Below, one piece after another: positions 11,218 through 28,996 of a DNA stretch of 33,585 nucleotides. The translations under genes and the position numbers were made by a program. Below the pieces are notes generated by a model, which saw only the letters and a program-made list of their open reading frames with translations, was not told where the DNA came from and made no database searches. The DNA comes from Planctomycetia bacterium (GTDB taxonomy: Bacteria > Planctomycetota > Planctomycetia > Gemmatales > Gemmataceae), in the NCBI GenBank assembly GCA_005772955.1, contig SXID01000036.1, forward strand, positions 1-33,585. The letters are read 5' to 3'. Position 1 is the first letter of the stretch; every line of letters starts with the position of its first letter.

Positions 11218-11291
11218 AATCAACCCGGCCTGCTGACGCAGGCGGTTCGACCAGCCCTGTCGACCGCCTGCGTCAGCAGGCCGGGTTGATT
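11218..11291. repeat. REP-like palindrome, copy 1
   Basis: The left arm is 11218-11250 and the right arm 11260-11291, with a 9-nt loop. The outer 28 bp of each arm pair perfectly, from AATCAACCCGG to GACGCAGGCGG. The loop side differs by one T. It lies just after the aminotransferase stop and is followed by TTTT, so it could also act as a terminator. The inner core CTGACGCAGGCGGTTCGA recurs with one base change at 24843-24927. Confidence 0.85.
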
Positions 11292-14450: not shown

Positions 14451-14558
14451 GGAAAGGCCGGATGGCAACAAAGGAGCACAAAGAGCACAAGAACAGAGTT
14501 GAGATTACTCCTCTGTCTTCGTCTTCCTTGTGCTTCTATGTGGCCATCTTGCCTTTCC
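14451..14558. repeat. Imperfect inverted repeat leading into the beta-propeller gene
   Basis: The left arm 14451-14491 (GGAAAGGC..GATGGC..AGCACAAAGAGCACAAG) pairs imperfectly with the right arm 14527-14558 (CTTGTGCTTC..GGCCATC..GCCTTTCC). ACAGAG and CTCTGT continue the pairing toward the loop. It belongs to the AGCACAAAGAGCACAAG-type short-period repeats and resembles the perfect repeat at 26978-27126. It occupies most of the 133 bp between rmlA and the beta-propeller gene and replaces a Shine-Dalgarno. Confidence 0.7.
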
Positions 14559-15751: not shown

Positions 15752-16822
15752 TCAAATCAACCCATGATGGCCGAGGTAGCGCTCCGCGTCGAGCGCGGCC
15801 ATGCACCCGGTGCCGGCCGCGCTCACGGCCTGGCGGTAGTAGTCGTCGGCCACGTCGCCAGCCGCGAACACGCCTTCCACGCTCGTGTACGTCCGCGCCA
15901 GCGTCGTCCACTTGAGGTAGCCGCCCGCGTTCAGTTCCAACTGCCCGTCCAAGAAGCTGACGTTGGGCGTGTGGCCAATCGCCAGGAACAGGCCATTGGC
16001 CGGGAGTTCTTCCTTCAGCCCGCTCTTGTTGTTCTTCACGCGAACCGCGGTCACGCCCTTCTTGTCGTCGCCGATGACCTCATCGACTTCCGTGTGCCAC
16101 TTCAACTCGATCTTCGGATTCGACGTGGCCCGCTCTGCCATGATCTTGCTCGCCCGGAGCACGTCGCGGCGGACGAGCAGGTGGACCTTGCTACCAAACT
16201 TGGTCAGGTATCCGGCCTCTTCGACGGCGGTGTCGCCACCACCGACCACGACGATCGGCTGATTGCGGAACCGCGGCAGCGCGCCGTCGCACACGGCGCA
16301 CGCGGACACGCCCTTGTTCTTGTACTTGTCCTCCGAAGGCAACCCGAGGTAGTTCGCCCGCGCGCCGGTCGCGATGATGAGCGCGTGTGCCTGCGCGGTC
16401 TTGCCGTCGTGCAATGTGACCGTGAACGGCTTGCCCTTCAGATCGACCTTCACCACGTCCTTCGACTCGACGCGAGTGCCGAAGTTCTTCGCTTGCTGTC
16501 GCGAGAGCGCGACCAACTCCGGGCCGTTGATGCCGTGCGTCGGTTGCGGTTTGTCCGCGGCGACCCAGTAGGGGAAGTCCGGGTCGTCGGCCTTCAGCGC
16601 GGTTTTGAGGTACTGACGTGTGTCGCCGGCGGGCCATGTGGGGAAGTTCTCCACTTCCGTGGTGAGCGCGAGTTGGCCGAGCGGCATCGTGCCGTTGATG
16701 CGGTTCCGGTCGTCGTTCGGGTTGCCCTCGAACACGAGCGGGTTCAGGTTCGCGCGGGCCGCGTAGATGGCGGCCGTCCACGCGGCCGGACCGGAACCGA
16801 TGATGATCACGTTTTCTGCCAT
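15752..16822 (-). CDS. trxB: Thioredoxin-disulfide reductase
   Basis: 356 aa. This FAD/NADPH enzyme reduces thioredoxin. The FAD site [20 protein letters not shown] is at the N-terminus. The redox-active pair CAVC(DG) is at about 175-178. The NADPH site [20 protein letters not shown] follows, and [20 protein letters not shown] is the C-terminal FAD motif. It is somewhat longer than E. coli TrxB (about 320 aa), mainly because of an insertion around [17 protein letters not shown]. The start is the ATG at 16820-16822 (MAENV). A GTG 39 bp upstream would add [13 protein letters not shown], which is translated repeat sequence. No Shine-Dalgarno is present; the leader is ACGAAAC/ACCAAAC heptamers that run into the ATG. 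It is divergent from argA. Confidence 0.93.
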
Positions 16823-16998
16823 TGGTGTTTCGTGTTTCGTGTTTGGTGTTTCGCCGTTCACGACCGCGGTGTCGCCGGGCGGTGCTGTCGTGCTATTCTA
16901 GAGGGACGCGGCGTTGTGTCTGGATCGGTGTTACCCAGGCGAATCATCGGCGACCGTCACAGCGGAATACCAAACACCCAACACGAAACACCAAACAC
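16821..16998. repeat. Inverted heptamer repeats forming the trxB and argA leaders
   Basis: At 16821-16853 (read on the minus strand) the trxB leader is a run of ACGAAAC/ACCAAAC heptamers. At 16968-16998 (plus strand) the argA leader is ACCAAACACCCAACACGAAA and ACACCAAACAC. The two are reverse complements over TGGTGTTTCGTGTT plus neighbouring heptamers, separated by about 114 bp that must hold both promoters. TGCTATTCT at 16891-16899 resembles an extended -10 toward argA, but no convincing -35 goes with it. Confidence 0.8.
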
Positions 16999-24842: not shown

Positions 24843-24927
24843 ACCCGACCCACTGACGCGGGCGGTTCGACAGTAACCAGTACTCATACTTCAAAGCGTT
24901 GAACCGCCCGCGTCAGCGGGTCGGGTT
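24843..24927. repeat. REP-like palindrome, copy 2
   Basis: The left arm is 24843-24868 and the right arm 24901-24926. The arms match at 25 of 26 positions (ACCCGACCC, A/G, CTGACGCGGGCGGTTC), with a 32-nt loop. The core is nearly the same as in copy 1 at 11218-11291: CTGACGCrGGCGGTTCGA. It lies between the Clp_N gene and the secreted gene at 24948, upstream of both. Confidence 0.82.
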
Positions 24928-25996: not shown

Positions 25997-26755
25997 ATGC
26001 GATCCGCTGCGCTGATTCTGGCTGTTTCGTTCACCGCTTCGCTCGCGGTATTGCGGGCCGAACCGCCCAAGCCCGAAAAGTTCGACGACACCGGCTTCGT
26101 GAAGATCTTCGACGGCAAAACGCTCGACGGCTGGAAGGTGTCCGCAAAGACCGGGCACAGCGGCACGAGCAAGAACAAGAGCGGTGGCAAGTGGGTCATC
26201 GAGAAGGGCGCGATCATCGGGAGCCAGGACATCCCCGGCAACGGCGGGATCATCATCACCGAGAAGGAGTACGGCGACTTCGAGATCGCGCTCGAGATGA
26301 ACAACGACGACGGCCCGGACAGCGGCCTGTTCCTCCGCAGCACCGACACCGGTAAGTGCTATCAGGCGATGATCGACTATCACAAGGGCGGTAACCTGAT
26401 GGGCATCTATGGCGAGGGCATCGGCGGGAAGCCGCACGTGCGGAACTTCGACTTCACGAAGGACGTGAACGAGATCGCGGTGAAGGAGTACAAGGAGTTC
26501 CCGTGCCCGGTGAAGGCGGAGGACTGGGCGAAGTTCTGGAAACACGGCGAATGGAACGAGATTCGCGCCCGCATCGAGGGCAACCCGCCGAAGCTCACGA
26601 CCTGGATCAAGGGCGTGAAGTTCATGGAGTATCAGGACACGGAGAAGCGCCTGGCTGACAAAGGCGGGATCGCGCTGCAAGTTCACGGCGGCGGGGACTA
26701 CACGAAGCAGTTCGTGCGCTACCGCAACGTCCGCGTGAAGGAACTGAAGAAGTGA
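25997..26755 (+). CDS. Secreted DUF1080 (3-keto-disaccharide hydrolase-type) protein
   Basis: 252 aa. A signal peptide, MRSAALILAVSFTASLAVLR, is followed by FVKIFDGKTLDGWKVSAKTG, the usual DUF1080 opening. GKWVIEKGAIIGSQDIPGNG, YGDFEIALEMNNDDGPDSGL, GEWNEIRARIEGNPPKLTTW and GIALQVHGGGDYTKQFVRYR complete the concanavalin-like lectin/glucanase fold. The family is greatly expanded in planctomycetes and is linked to binding or hydrolysis of keto-sugars; the exact substrate cannot be read from sequence. The ATG has AGGAG 6 nt upstream. Two tRNA genes on the opposite strand start 6 bp after the stop. Confidence 0.88.
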   Translation: MRSAALILAVSFTASLAVLRAEPPKPEKFDDTGFVKIFDGKTLDGWKVSAKTGHSGTSKNKSGGKWVIEKGAIIGSQDIPGNGGIIITEKEYGDFEIALEMNNDDGPDSGLFLRSTDTGKCYQAMIDYHKGGNLMGIYGEGIGGKPHVRNFDFTKDVNEIAVKEYKEFPCPVKAEDWAKFWKHGEWNEIRARIEGNPPKLTTWIKGVKFMEYQDTEKRLADKGGIALQVHGGGDYTKQFVRYRNVRVKELKK

Positions 26756-26760
26756 GCGAG

Positions 26761-26832
26761 TACCCCGGCCAGGAGTCGAACCCGGAACGTCCCGGTAGAA
26801 GCGGGATGTGATTTCCGTTTCACCAACGGGGC
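26761..26832 (-). tRNA. tRNA-Arg (anticodon TCT)
   Basis: A 72-nt cloverleaf on the minus strand. The acceptor GCCCCGT pairs with CCGGGGT with a G-U at 1-72 and one T-C mismatch at 7-66; the discriminator is A. The D stem is GTGA/TCAC with loop AACGGAAA. The anticodon stem is TCCCG/CGGGA with loop CTTCTAC, anticodon TCT. The variable loop is 4 nt, and the T arm is CCGGG-TTCGACT-CCTGG. CCA is not encoded. It would read AGA and AGG. Confidence 0.85.
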
Positions 26833-26836
26833 CAAG

Positions 26837-26921
26837 CGGAAGGGACAGGACTCGAACCTGCAAGGGCTTGCGCCTCGTTCGCTTTCCAAGCGAGTGCCGT
26901 CACCAATCGGCTTGCCCTTCC
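26837..26921 (-). tRNA. tRNA-Ser (anticodon GGA)
   Basis: An 85-nt tRNA on the minus strand. The acceptor GGAAGGG/CCCTTCC has discriminator G. The D arm is GCC-GATTGGTGAC-GGC, and the anticodon stem CTCGC/GCGAA has a C-A mismatch at its outer end. The loop TTGGAAA gives anticodon GGA. A long variable arm is present (CGAGGCGCAAGCCCTTG), as expected for serine, and the T arm is GCAGG-TTCGAGT-CCTGT. It is 4 nt upstream of tRNA-Arg, so the two are one transcript. CCA is not encoded. Confidence 0.88.
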
Positions 26922-26977
26922 GTGTGATGTGGAGGAGACAGCCGTGACCTGGGAGAGGTTCGCGCCGTGGGCGCAGC

Positions 26978-27126
26978 AAAGGCAGAAGAGGGATTAACCA
27001 CGAAGACACAAAGAACACAAAGAAGACGAACACAAGAGAAGTTCTGTTTTGAAGAACTCTGCTTCTGCTTGTGTTCGTCTTCTTTGTGTTCTTTGTGTCT
27101 TCGTGGTTAATCCCTCTTCTGCCTTT
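26978..27126. repeat. Perfect 59-bp inverted repeat
   Basis: 26978-27036 and 27068-27126 are exact reverse complements over 59 bp, with a 31-nt spacer that itself has AGTTCT/AGAACT pairing. The arms carry ATTAACCACGAAGACACAAA and GAACACAAAGAAGACGAAC, an 8-9-bp periodic repeat of the AACACAAAG type. It separates the Ser-Arg tRNA pair from the M61 peptidase stop (27134). A perfect match this long points to recent formation or active gene conversion. Confidence 0.92.
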
Positions 27127-27133
27127 AACTGCG

Positions 27134-28996
27134 TCACTTCGCTTTCGGCTTCACAACCTCCGCGAGCACATCCGCCTTCCCCTCGGCTTTCTCCAGTCGC
27201 GGGTGGCGCGCGCCGCCCGTGTAGTCGAGCGCATGCGTCTTGAAGAAGTCACCGCTCTCGGCGAGCAGTTCCAACTTGCCGCCGGATTTGGTCGCGGCCA
27301 CGGCGGTCTTCAGATAGTCCGTCGCGAACCGGCGGCCGTTCACCGCGATCAACTTCATCCCAGGCGCGAGGCCGGCTTTCGCGGCGGCCGAGTCCGGCAC
27401 GATGTCGCCGATCAACCCGTCGGCACTCACCGCGAAGCCGACCGAGTCCGTCAGGTTCGCGCCGCGCGACAACCCTTCCATCGTGGCGAACAGGTCGGTG
27501 GGCTTCTCGGTGTACGTCAGTTTCCACCCGCCCTCGGTGATACCTTCGAGCGGCGGCGTTTCGGCGGCCACTTCGACGCGTCGCGCGAAGTACGCCTTCC
27601 AGTCTCGCTCCACGACCGCGTTCAGCGCGTCGAGGACGTTTTCGAAGTTGTAGCCCTTCACCTCTGGCTTGCCGCTGCCGCTGCCGAAGAACGCTTTGCA
27701 AAAGTCGTCGAGCGACTTCGCGCCCTTCGTTTGCGTGCGGATCAGCACATCGACTTCGAGCCACAGCAGCGTGCCCTCGTCGTAGAAGTCCACCGAGCGG
27801 CGGGCCGAGCGCCAGGAACCGGTCGCGTCGAACAGCGTGCTGGCAGCCGCGGCGGTGTCGTCGAGCGGGCGCCAGCCTCGCGCCTTCACGTTGGTCATGC
27901 GCGCCGCGGTCATCGCGAGGTAGTCGCGTCCCTCGTCCGCGGTGTACAGGCCGCTGCGCACCGCGAGCAACCACCCGAGGTAATTGGTTAACCCTTCGTA
28001 GACCCATAGTAGTCGCGTCTGCTGCGGCTTCTGGTAGTCGGGCATAATCATGTCGGCGGGGCGCCGAAACTTGCCGTTCCACGCGTGAACGAACTCGTGC
28101 GGGAACAACGTCGCCGACCCCTTGCGCTCCGCGGTCTTGATCAGCGCGAGTTCTGACAACCGGTTGTCACTCGACTGATGGTGTTCGATGCCCGCTCGCG
28201 GGATGTGGTTGCTCAAGCCCAGCAGGAACGTGTAGTTCGTGTACGGTTTCGCGGGGCCGAACAGCGCCGCCGCTTCGCCCGGCAACTTGTTCCACGACTT
28301 GAGCGTGGCTTCCGGCACTTCAAGTCCGTCTGGGCTGTCGCACGCAATCACGACGCGGTGTTTGTCCTTCTCGTCGCCCAGCGGAACGATGCGCACGTAT
28401 TCGCCCGCGAGCAGCGGCGAGTCGATGAGCGTTTCGAGCGTGACCTCTTTGAACACGACCTTCCCGTTTTTCTCGTCTTTCGTGGGAAGCGCGGTACCGT
28501 ACTTCCAGTTGGTCGGGAGCTTCACCGCGGCATCGATGGTGAGGCCCAGCGGCTTCGCGAGTTTGGGGTACACGAGTACGTCGTTCCAGTTCATCGTCAT
28601 CAGCTTGGGTGACGCGACCGTCATGAACTGCGCGCCGCCTTCGGCGCCGGCCGCGAGCAACAGGTCGAAGGTCACTTCGACCGCGCTCGCGCCCTGCGGC
28701 ACGGTGACGTTGATGGTGAACGGGTCGGCGTCGTCGCGCTTCCAGTCGATGGCCTTGCCACCCGCTTTGACGCGCAACTCAGTCACGTTCGCGATCTGCC
28801 CGACAGGCCGGTGGCGGCCCGGTATCCACTTCGGGTAGTGCAGCGAGAGTTGCCCCGGTGCGGCCGGGATCGTCACGCGAACGTGGATCACCTTCCGCGC
28901 CACCTCGGACGCATTGACCTCCAGTTCAATGTTCTGTGCGAAGGTGAGCGATGGGACCGCAACGAGCGCGAAAATGACGAACGCGAAACGCGGCAT
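27134..28996 (-). CDS. Secreted M61-family (glycyl aminopeptidase-like) metallopeptidase with PDZ domain
   Basis: 620 aa. The signal peptide MPRFAFVIFALVAVPSLTFA is cleaved near AQNIE. The N-terminal beta domain contains LSLHYPKWIPGRHRPVGQIA. The catalytic zinc motif HEFVHAWNGK starts at His300 (Glu301, His304), in the family's HExxH-WN form. LLWVYEGLTNYLGWLLAVRS supplies the downstream Glu ligand. The C-terminal PDZ domain (about 520-600) includes GLIGDIVPDSAAAKAGLAPG and MKLIAVNGRRF. It probably cleaves peptides in the periplasm or outside the cell. The ATG has GGAG 9 nt upstream. It is divergent from the SNF2 gene and ends 8 bp from the perfect inverted repeat. Confidence 0.92.
   Translation of the reverse strand: MPRFAFVIFALVAVPSLTFAQNIELEVNASEVARKVIHVRVTIPAAPGQLSLHYPKWIPGRHRPVGQIANVTELRVKAGGKAIDWKRDDADPFTINVTVPQGASAVEVTFDLLLAAGAEGGAQFMTVASPKLMTMNWNDVLVYPKLAKPLGLTIDAAVKLPTNWKYGTALPTKDEKNGKVVFKEVTLETLIDSPLLAGEYVRIVPLGDEKDKHRVVIACDSPDGLEVPEATLKSWNKLPGEAAALFGPAKPYTNYTFLLGLSNHIPRAGIEHHQSSDNRLSELALIKTAERKGSATLFPHEFVHAWNGKFRRPADMIMPDYQKPQQTRLLWVYEGLTNYLGWLLAVRSGLYTADEGRDYLAMTAARMTNVKARGWRPLDDTAAAASTLFDATGSWRSARRSVDFYDEGTLLWLEVDVLIRTQTKGAKSLDDFCKAFFGSGSGKPEVKGYNFENVLDALNAVVERDWKAYFARRVEVAAETPPLEGITEGGWKLTYTEKPTDLFATMEGLSRGANLTDSVGFAVSADGLIGDIVPDSAAAKAGLAPGMKLIAVNGRRFATDYLKTAVAATKSGGKLELLAESGDFFKTHALDYTGGARHPRLEKAEGKADVLAEVVKPKAK

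Follow-up and report, generated by a model that had tools for sequence, protein, structure and literature searches.

A perfect intergenic palindrome of a planctomycete, probably a gene-less copy of a dispersed element whose full form carries a GxxExxY gene

The window analyzed here is the whole stretch of 33,585 nucleotides from a Planctomycetia bacterium of the Gemmataceae. In it, an M61 peptidase gene ends at a long palindrome, beyond which lies a tRNA-Ser gene (Table 1). Comparison of the two arms showed that 59 of 59 bases are complementary around a 31-nt loop, exactly as a preliminary description of this DNA had stated, and the 8-9-nt period that it had read in the arms is real. That description also placed the palindrome between tRNAs and a convergently read peptidase gene; the palindrome does lie between them, but all of these genes are on the minus strand and the order is tandem. 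Five extra pairs form beyond a small bulge, so that the stem ends beside the stop codon of the peptidase gene (27134-27136, minus strand).

Table 1. Features at and related to the palindrome, in window coordinates.
Feature	Position	Strand	Remarks
Left arm	26978..27036	+	purine-rich; units CCACGAAG ACACAAAG AACACAAAG
Loop, 31 nt	27037..27067	+	small hairpin AGTTCT (27040-27045) / AGAACT (27053-27058)
Right arm	27068..27126	+	exact reverse complement of left arm
Outer stem extension CGCAG	26972..26976	+	pairs with CTGCG 27129-27133 past small bulge; sequence and RNA fold
CTGCG, partner of 26972-26976	27129..27133	+	abuts M61 stop codon; sequence and RNA fold
M61 glycyl aminopeptidase gene	27134..28996	-	PF17899, PF05299; 3' end faces palindrome
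tRNA-Ser(GGA)	26836..26921	-	next gene downstream of M61, same strand
tRNA-Arg(TCT)	26760..26832	-	
Probable diverged relative of the palindrome	14451..14558	+	GGCAACAAAGGAGCACAAAGA / TCCTTGTGCTTCTATGTGGCC; likeness by eye

When the minus strand of 26960-27140 was folded as RNA, the energy was -129.3 kcal/mol, compared with -45.7 +/- 4.2 kcal/mol for dinucleotide shuffles (z = -20), and none of 200 shuffles folded as well. The palindrome does not have the G+C-rich stem followed by a T run of an intrinsic terminator, and a scan that handles only loops of 3-8 found no terminator-like site in it. Together with the tandem order of the genes, and with related copies that sit between closely spaced genes of the same direction, these results lend no support to the earlier proposal that the palindrome may stop transcription. 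An Rfam search of 26700-27400 returned 23 matches up to an E value of 1, of which those over the palindrome were all below the family gathering score and the sole match reaching its cut-off was a tRNA. Two mechanical reading frames, 26719-27033 (minus) and 27071-27991 (plus), start identically, with MFVFFVFFVSSWLIPLLPL, since they read the two arms from opposite strands, and both are likely spurious if annotated as proteins.

Palindromes of other sequence are also found in the window. One at 16822-16994, with units TTTCGTGT/TTTGGTGT, is in frame and forms the start of a minus-strand frame that enters a gene, presumably reductase-like. Another at 733-879 (GATTCACCGCGGTGGGC / GCCCCCTGCGGTGAATC, with a 93-nt loop) lies directly ahead of a glycosylase gene (PELPEVETVV) that we take to be MutM-like.

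The preliminary description had recommended a search for related arms. A DNA search of the home genome, an assembly of 278 contigs, returned 57 matches to the window palindrome on the two strands together, which correspond to 27 places with the window as one of them, and a pattern search added at least one further place, on C109. The copies have in common a core, TTAACCACAAAGGCACAAAGGACACAAAGAAG, plus its inverse around a variable loop, and by eye, motifs akin to the loop of the window copy reappear in other copies in either orientation. Each arm of the window palindrome contains a pair of 8-10-nt units of the CACRRAG type. The copies occupy gene-gene spacers; the setting of the 26 copies outside the window is tandem for 18, like that of the window copy, convergent for 6, divergent for 1 (L009) and undetermined for 1, as judged by simple gene calling in which several calls are open-ended and the one at L009 is doubtful. 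Like miniature elements of the MITE type, the family thus has many short copies that are non-coding, carry terminal inverted repeats and are scattered through the genome.

We then compared the two arms within copies. In the variable outer arms of the 27 copies, the mean matched run was 4.9 within a copy and 1.8 when right arms were permuted (0/5000), and matches in 18 positions numbered 9.6 and 7.6, respectively (again 0/5000). The 21-nt core has 12 variants that occur in both arms of the same copy, where about 3 coincidences would be expected, and the window copy has three such shared variants; the 60 variants confined to a single arm include some from arms in which a unit was gained or lost. 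These data support gene conversion between the arms, which had been among the origins suggested for their perfect identity. As to recent birth, another of them, the absence of the palindrome at the same junction in a congener (see below) shows gain or loss at this site, but a recent insertion of a copy that is still present lacks support, the closest relative in the home genome being 84% identical. Because there is no closer sister than this, arm-to-arm correction, or a source copy lost since, fits the perfect arms better than very recent transposition.

A close relative carries the same arms in a comparable position, but there they surround a gene. At locus L302 of congener G018 the order is the stop codon TAG, the arm TCACCACAAAGGCACGAAGGGCACAAAGAAGACAAGAGAGA, an intact GxxExxY gene, the inverted arm, a few bases and the ATG of the next gene. 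When the window palindrome was compared with 19 sets of arms, those of L302 were the best match with a score of 26, the next reaching 20. GxxExxY (PF13366) belongs to the PD-(D/E)XK nuclease superfamily and is a predicted nuclease. Residues G24, G26, L28, E29, Y32, E39, D69, E79, K81, H90, Q93, Y97, G106, L107, N110 and F111 are invariant in 14 aligned members, and we take the D...ExK...QxxxY pattern to recall RecB/Cas4-like nucleases. We know of no activity of the protein. Searches by sequence for solved relatives gave nothing credible (two chains at E values of 0.26 and 0.84; a second search none up to 1), and an AlphaFold2 model built from 3 sequences, with a pLDDT of 41.8, was unusable. 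In the open-licence literature we found no statement of function for GxxExxY proteins and no paper containing any of six unit strings of 15-16 letters; nor did that literature, which leaves absence from print as a whole unproven, link GxxExxY to palindromes. In the accessible text of PMC8934634, GxxExxY appears a single time, as a domain adjacent to a reverse transcriptase in a place that another tool annotated as cas4, and PF13366, TIGR04256 or PDDEXK_3 is mentioned in work on Arctic microalgae.

We examined whether GxxExxY genes elsewhere lie between inverted arms. PF13366 was detected in 138 of 294 genomes sampled from the phylum, and CACRRAG unit pairs were found at 14 of 30 fetched loci, near the gene at 13 and about 1 kb off at one (L138). 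In a test that does not depend on the units, upstream sequence was aligned locally with the reverse-complemented downstream sequence and a score of 14 or more was required. Inverted arms were detected at 24 of 28 phylum loci (the frame was not found at the other 2 of the 30), which were, like all the GxxExxY loci tested, the highest-ranked by the search tool and not a random sample, whereas only 1 of 225 control window pairs in the same loci passed. Within the genus, GxxExxY is present in 14 of 19 genomes and arms flank 19 of 20 fetched loci; of the 259 control genes called in four congeners, 4 passed the same kind of test, or 2 of 75 when genes of similar length were considered. In other groups, 19 of 20 named genomes, which had been chosen because they carry the core pattern of the family, contain GxxExxY, with arms at 24 of the 29 loci that could be tested, in 16 of 18 genomes. 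By eye the arms mostly consist of 8-10-nt units, L183 being one of the exceptions. In the genus, all 37 matches are free of stops within the matched stretch, and two adjoining matches on G003:C1266 look like a single gene split between frames. The architecture and the association of the gene with inverted arms are direct observations at these loci.

Gene-less palindromes also resemble the arms of GxxExxY genes. Of 26 spacers from seven congeners, hand-picked as holding or possibly holding palindromes, 15 matched a GxxExxY arm with a score of at least 17; for 7 of these 15 the best match came from the same genome, against a permuted mean of 1.2 (0/20,000 permutations as high). The home genome itself gave no GxxExxY match, and therefore we call the window copy gene-less and not a full element. 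The genus search of 19 genomes likewise found none in G001, G005, G011 and G017. In G007, G009 and G012, GxxExxY is present together with palindromes of other unit types, and there is no BLAST match to the window palindrome.

Relatives of the window palindrome occur in 14 of the 19 genus genomes, the home genome included, and in one genome of another genus (15 of 41 searched). The core pattern TTAACCACRAAGGNACRAAGGACACRAAG is more widespread, with 63 stretches in a collection of species genomes from about a dozen phyla; by title these include Planctomycetes, Cyanobacteria, Gamma- and Deltaproteobacteria, Verrucomicrobia, Bacteroidota, Chloroflexi, Aminicenantes, Nitrospinota, Omnitrophota, WOR-3 and KSB1. 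An inverted partner, sought as a 13-mer in which 2 mismatches were allowed, was present within 800 nt at 30 of the 63 places and downstream within 250 nt at 21; the test found none at 33, and therefore many of the places are lone arms or are too diverged. Among 110 scanned frames (of 119 found) adjoining these places, three, at L079, L105 and L106, were PF13366 and were confirmed as TIGR04256 GxxExxY. The commonest family was Aconitase_C (5 of 110 frames), which we take to come from five Dolichospermum/Anabaena loci that, judged by the bases before the motif, resemble one single place.

Carriage by phages or plasmids was considered and set aside. The core pattern had no hits in viral contigs, in which GxxExxY was found at no locus with one protein query and at one locus with a profile. 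Only 8 of 72,556 plasmid records contain GxxExxY, so the genes look mainly chromosomal.

Comparison of the locus across congeners revealed an empty site. M61 relatives are present in 15 of the 19 genus genomes, and by eye the order M61 to tRNA-Ser is kept only in G001, where the spacer is short and without a palindrome; the window site has therefore undergone gain or loss. At the site of another copy of the home genome, L026, G001 has only GCC between the stop codon TGA and the ATG. Presence or absence at orthologous sites, as is expected of MITEs, is thus seen at two sites in G001. We recognized no target-site duplication by eye at the two empty sites, the flanks of which have diverged. In the other genomes with an M61 relative, the next gene is a different one, as judged by eye.

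Different palindromes occupy the same junction in different species. At the L010 site, the home genome has CACGAAGGCACAAAG, G001 CCGCAGAGACCGCGG, G015 GAACCGCGACCGTGAGGG, G009 GAACCCCGCCCGC, G007 GAACGGCCGGTGTGGG, G016 TCCGCAGATTACGCAG, G018 CACCACAAAGGCAC and G010 TCCGCAGATGGACGCAG. In G012 the site (L227) has no long palindrome but about 490 nt of other sequence, in which a small reading frame seems to be present. Of 40 orthologous congener spacers, 27 contained an inverted repeat with a score of at least 14, and just 5 of the 40 contain the units of the home genome; the 40 comprise 39 spacers at seven sites in eight congeners, in which both halves were found adjacent, and the M61 spacer of G001. 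(At the L014 site the halves are not adjacent in relatives, and L024 was cut from the query.) For background we used 222 gene-gene spacers of up to 500 nt from 400 kb of four congeners (L265-L284), chosen regardless of palindromes. Palindromes proved pervasive in the genus, with an inverted repeat of this score in 39 of the 222, and they belong to many sequence families. Long palindromes in spacers are thus common here, contrary to the earlier view of long perfect ones as rare. Among spacers of 60-500 nt, 15 of 32 convergent, 19 of 70 tandem and 4 of 38 divergent ones were palindromic, and among shorter spacers 1 of 82. Compared with the non-divergent background (34 of 102 at 60-500 nt; 34 of 177 at any length up to 500 nt), the sites of the home copies are therefore enriched, although palindromes are common generally and the congeners are not independent. 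The re-use of sites may in part be concerted drift of one old palindrome, as at the L011 site in G000, G001 and G015, and not replacement.

One alternative explanation, akin to the selection for the hairpin suggested in the preliminary description, is that the palindromes are kept because a hairpin at the end of a gene is useful, whether as a 3'-end or intercistronic RNA hairpin, as an RNase III site or as a bidirectional terminator; any palindrome would then serve and its sequence would turn over. The enrichment at orthologous spacers with so few retained units speaks for this explanation, as do the abundance of background palindromes in convergent spacers, their scarcity in divergent ones and the other palindromes seen by eye behind M61 in G004, G012, G013 and G015. 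We nevertheless regard it as rather unlikely. The two sites in G001 do without any palindrome, and at the L030 site G007 has merely a short hairpin; the window palindrome contains no terminator-like site, and copies lie between closely spaced tandem genes. Nor does usefulness of the hairpin explain why GxxExxY genes lie inside the same kind of arms.

A second family of genes is found inside palindromes. Genes of PF05635 (four-helix bundle, S23) lie between inverted arms at 21 of 27 testable loci (L145-L174, from other Planctomycetota genomes), and by eye these arms are made of 7-nt units, AGTGGTTAGTGATTAGTG and the like. As a partner of the window family, PF05635 was rejected: it has no match in the home genome, and CACRRAG unit pairs occur at 0 of 30 of its loci. 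The control genomes gave no match either, yet 150 of 294 genomes of the phylum were positive. In the open-licence literature, the terms 'four helix bundle protein' and 'palindrom' do co-occur in some papers.

It could therefore be asked whether the palindromes spread by other means, such as template switching during replication or a host enzyme, with the GxxExxY and four-helix-bundle genes as tolerated passengers of the loop. That two unrelated gene families occupy palindromes would fit, as would the many copies kept by genomes without GxxExxY and the existence of nested palindromes; by eye, G007 has at the site of home copy L018 (locus L239) a palindrome within a palindrome of a different unit type. 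We consider this explanation doubtful. By eye the unit type tracks the gene family, 7-nt units going with PF05635 and mostly 8-10-nt units with PF13366, and the resemblance of gene-less copies to the GxxExxY arms of their own genome is expected of a specific partnership.

A third explanation, a palindrome of the REP or TIR type moved by a tyrosine (Y1, RAYT/TIRYT) transposase, is quite improbable. The home genome has 8 Y1_Tnp matches, 6 of them above the family cut-off, and inverted repeats scoring 19 or more flank four of the eight, a score that none of 260 background pairs of 500-nt windows reached. This is the layout of the REPtrons and TIRtrons described in the available part of PMC3733652. 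However, the repeats are unlike the window family in sequence. At the 8 fetched Y1 loci there were no CACRRAG unit pairs, and the arms of the window family scored at most 10.5, so the same repeat does not flank a Y1 transposase at any of them. The arms belong to other palindromes: by eye, those of the Y1 gene at L049 resemble two related long palindromes of the window at 11218-11291 and 24843-24926 (ACCCG..CTGACGC.GGCGGT), so that palindromes of the Y1 type, already known from the same source, coexist in one genome with those of the present kind. Two of the eight Y1 genes (C236:84-650 and C89:2393-2911) lie about 2 kb from copies of the family (C236:2506 and C89:4833); two called genes intervene on C236, the second reaching into the copy, and one on C89. 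On these grounds the Y1 transposase is disfavored as a partner of the window family.

That an assembly artefact produced the perfect arms is unlikely, almost to the point of dismissal, despite the 278 contigs of the home assembly, because perfect inverted repeats of 30-50 bp occur at ten congener spacers, four of which belong to assemblies of 2-3 contigs; related, mostly imperfect copies also lie at 26 other places of the home genome.

Taken together, these data suggest that the window palindrome is probably a gene-less, MITE-like, non-autonomous copy of a dispersed element whose full form carries GxxExxY. The preliminary description missed this wider context, both the dispersed family and the gene. 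In the full element, two inverted arms of short CACRRAG-type units would enclose a single GxxExxY gene, the predicted PD-(D/E)XK nuclease. We infer that the nuclease moves or maintains the palindromes in trans and, because the home genome lacks the gene, that it would be supplied by congeners or by a past resident. It perhaps acts on an extruded hairpin or cruciform. Copies may persist for the most part in short spacers between genes, where the hairpin, once transcribed, would fold away without harm, and the perfect arms of the window copy may have arisen by arm-templated correction during replication. Several observations count against this reading. GxxExxY is missing from some genomes, including the home genome, and G000 nonetheless has many copies; G007, G009 and G012, conversely, have the gene but no match to the window palindrome; the searches gave no credible solved relative of the protein; the PF05635 genes inside palindromes of another unit type would also suit passengers; fewer than half of the core-pattern places (30/63) have an inverted partner and only 3/110 neighboring frames are PF13366; no target-site duplication was recognized; and two of the 8 Y1 genes lie close to family copies.

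A broader proposal, which we offer only tentatively and consider less likely than not, is that these palindromes represent an undescribed and widespread class of mobile elements. Short-period palindromes would be moved by a small GxxExxY nuclease whose substrate is the hairpin or cruciform into which its own arms fold, gene-less derivatives would be moved in trans and re-seed the same gene-end spacers, and a sister class with 7-nt units would carry S23. If this is true, the intervening sequences of 23S rRNA would be one special case of that sister class, and the spread of S23-bearing rRNA intervening sequences, an open question, would be tied to a general architecture. There would also be a nuclease-based alternative to the RAYT/REP scheme, one that accounts for common short-period intergenic palindromes. 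The position of GxxExxY between inverted arms at most tested loci, in many phyla, gives the protein a concrete, testable role. The different palindromes at orthologous junctions across species raise the question of site choice or of selection for a hairpin.

The present family shares features with three known systems. As in the REPtrons and TIRtrons of PMC3733652, of which we refer to the available part, a repeat-flanked gene is accompanied by many gene-less, mostly intergenic copies in several phyla including Planctomycetes; in that system, however, the gene encodes a Y1 transposase, whereas the gene here encodes a predicted PD-(D/E)XK nuclease, and the present arms, about 40-60 bp long, are composed of 8-10-nt units. 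The GTAG/CGTC end tag of REPs is not evident by eye at the outer ends of the present palindrome. Like the MITEs ERIC and Correia and the Rickettsia palindromic elements, as far as the accessible text of PMC10969869 describes them, the copies are short, have inverted repeats, are mostly intergenic and non-autonomous, and are sometimes in frame; they differ in that no target-site duplication was recognized and in that a congener holds a relative in which the same arms enclose a gene. In layout the full form also resembles the 23S rRNA intervening sequences with S23, for which the accessible text of PMC4990558 describes a long stem of terminal inverted repeats whose loop contains a single small ORF, a sporadic distribution and a mobility that is suspected but unproven. 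Those sequences lie in rRNA helices and carry S23 (PF05635), whereas the present family lies between genes, in the window between a protein gene and a tRNA, and its full form carries GxxExxY (PF13366).
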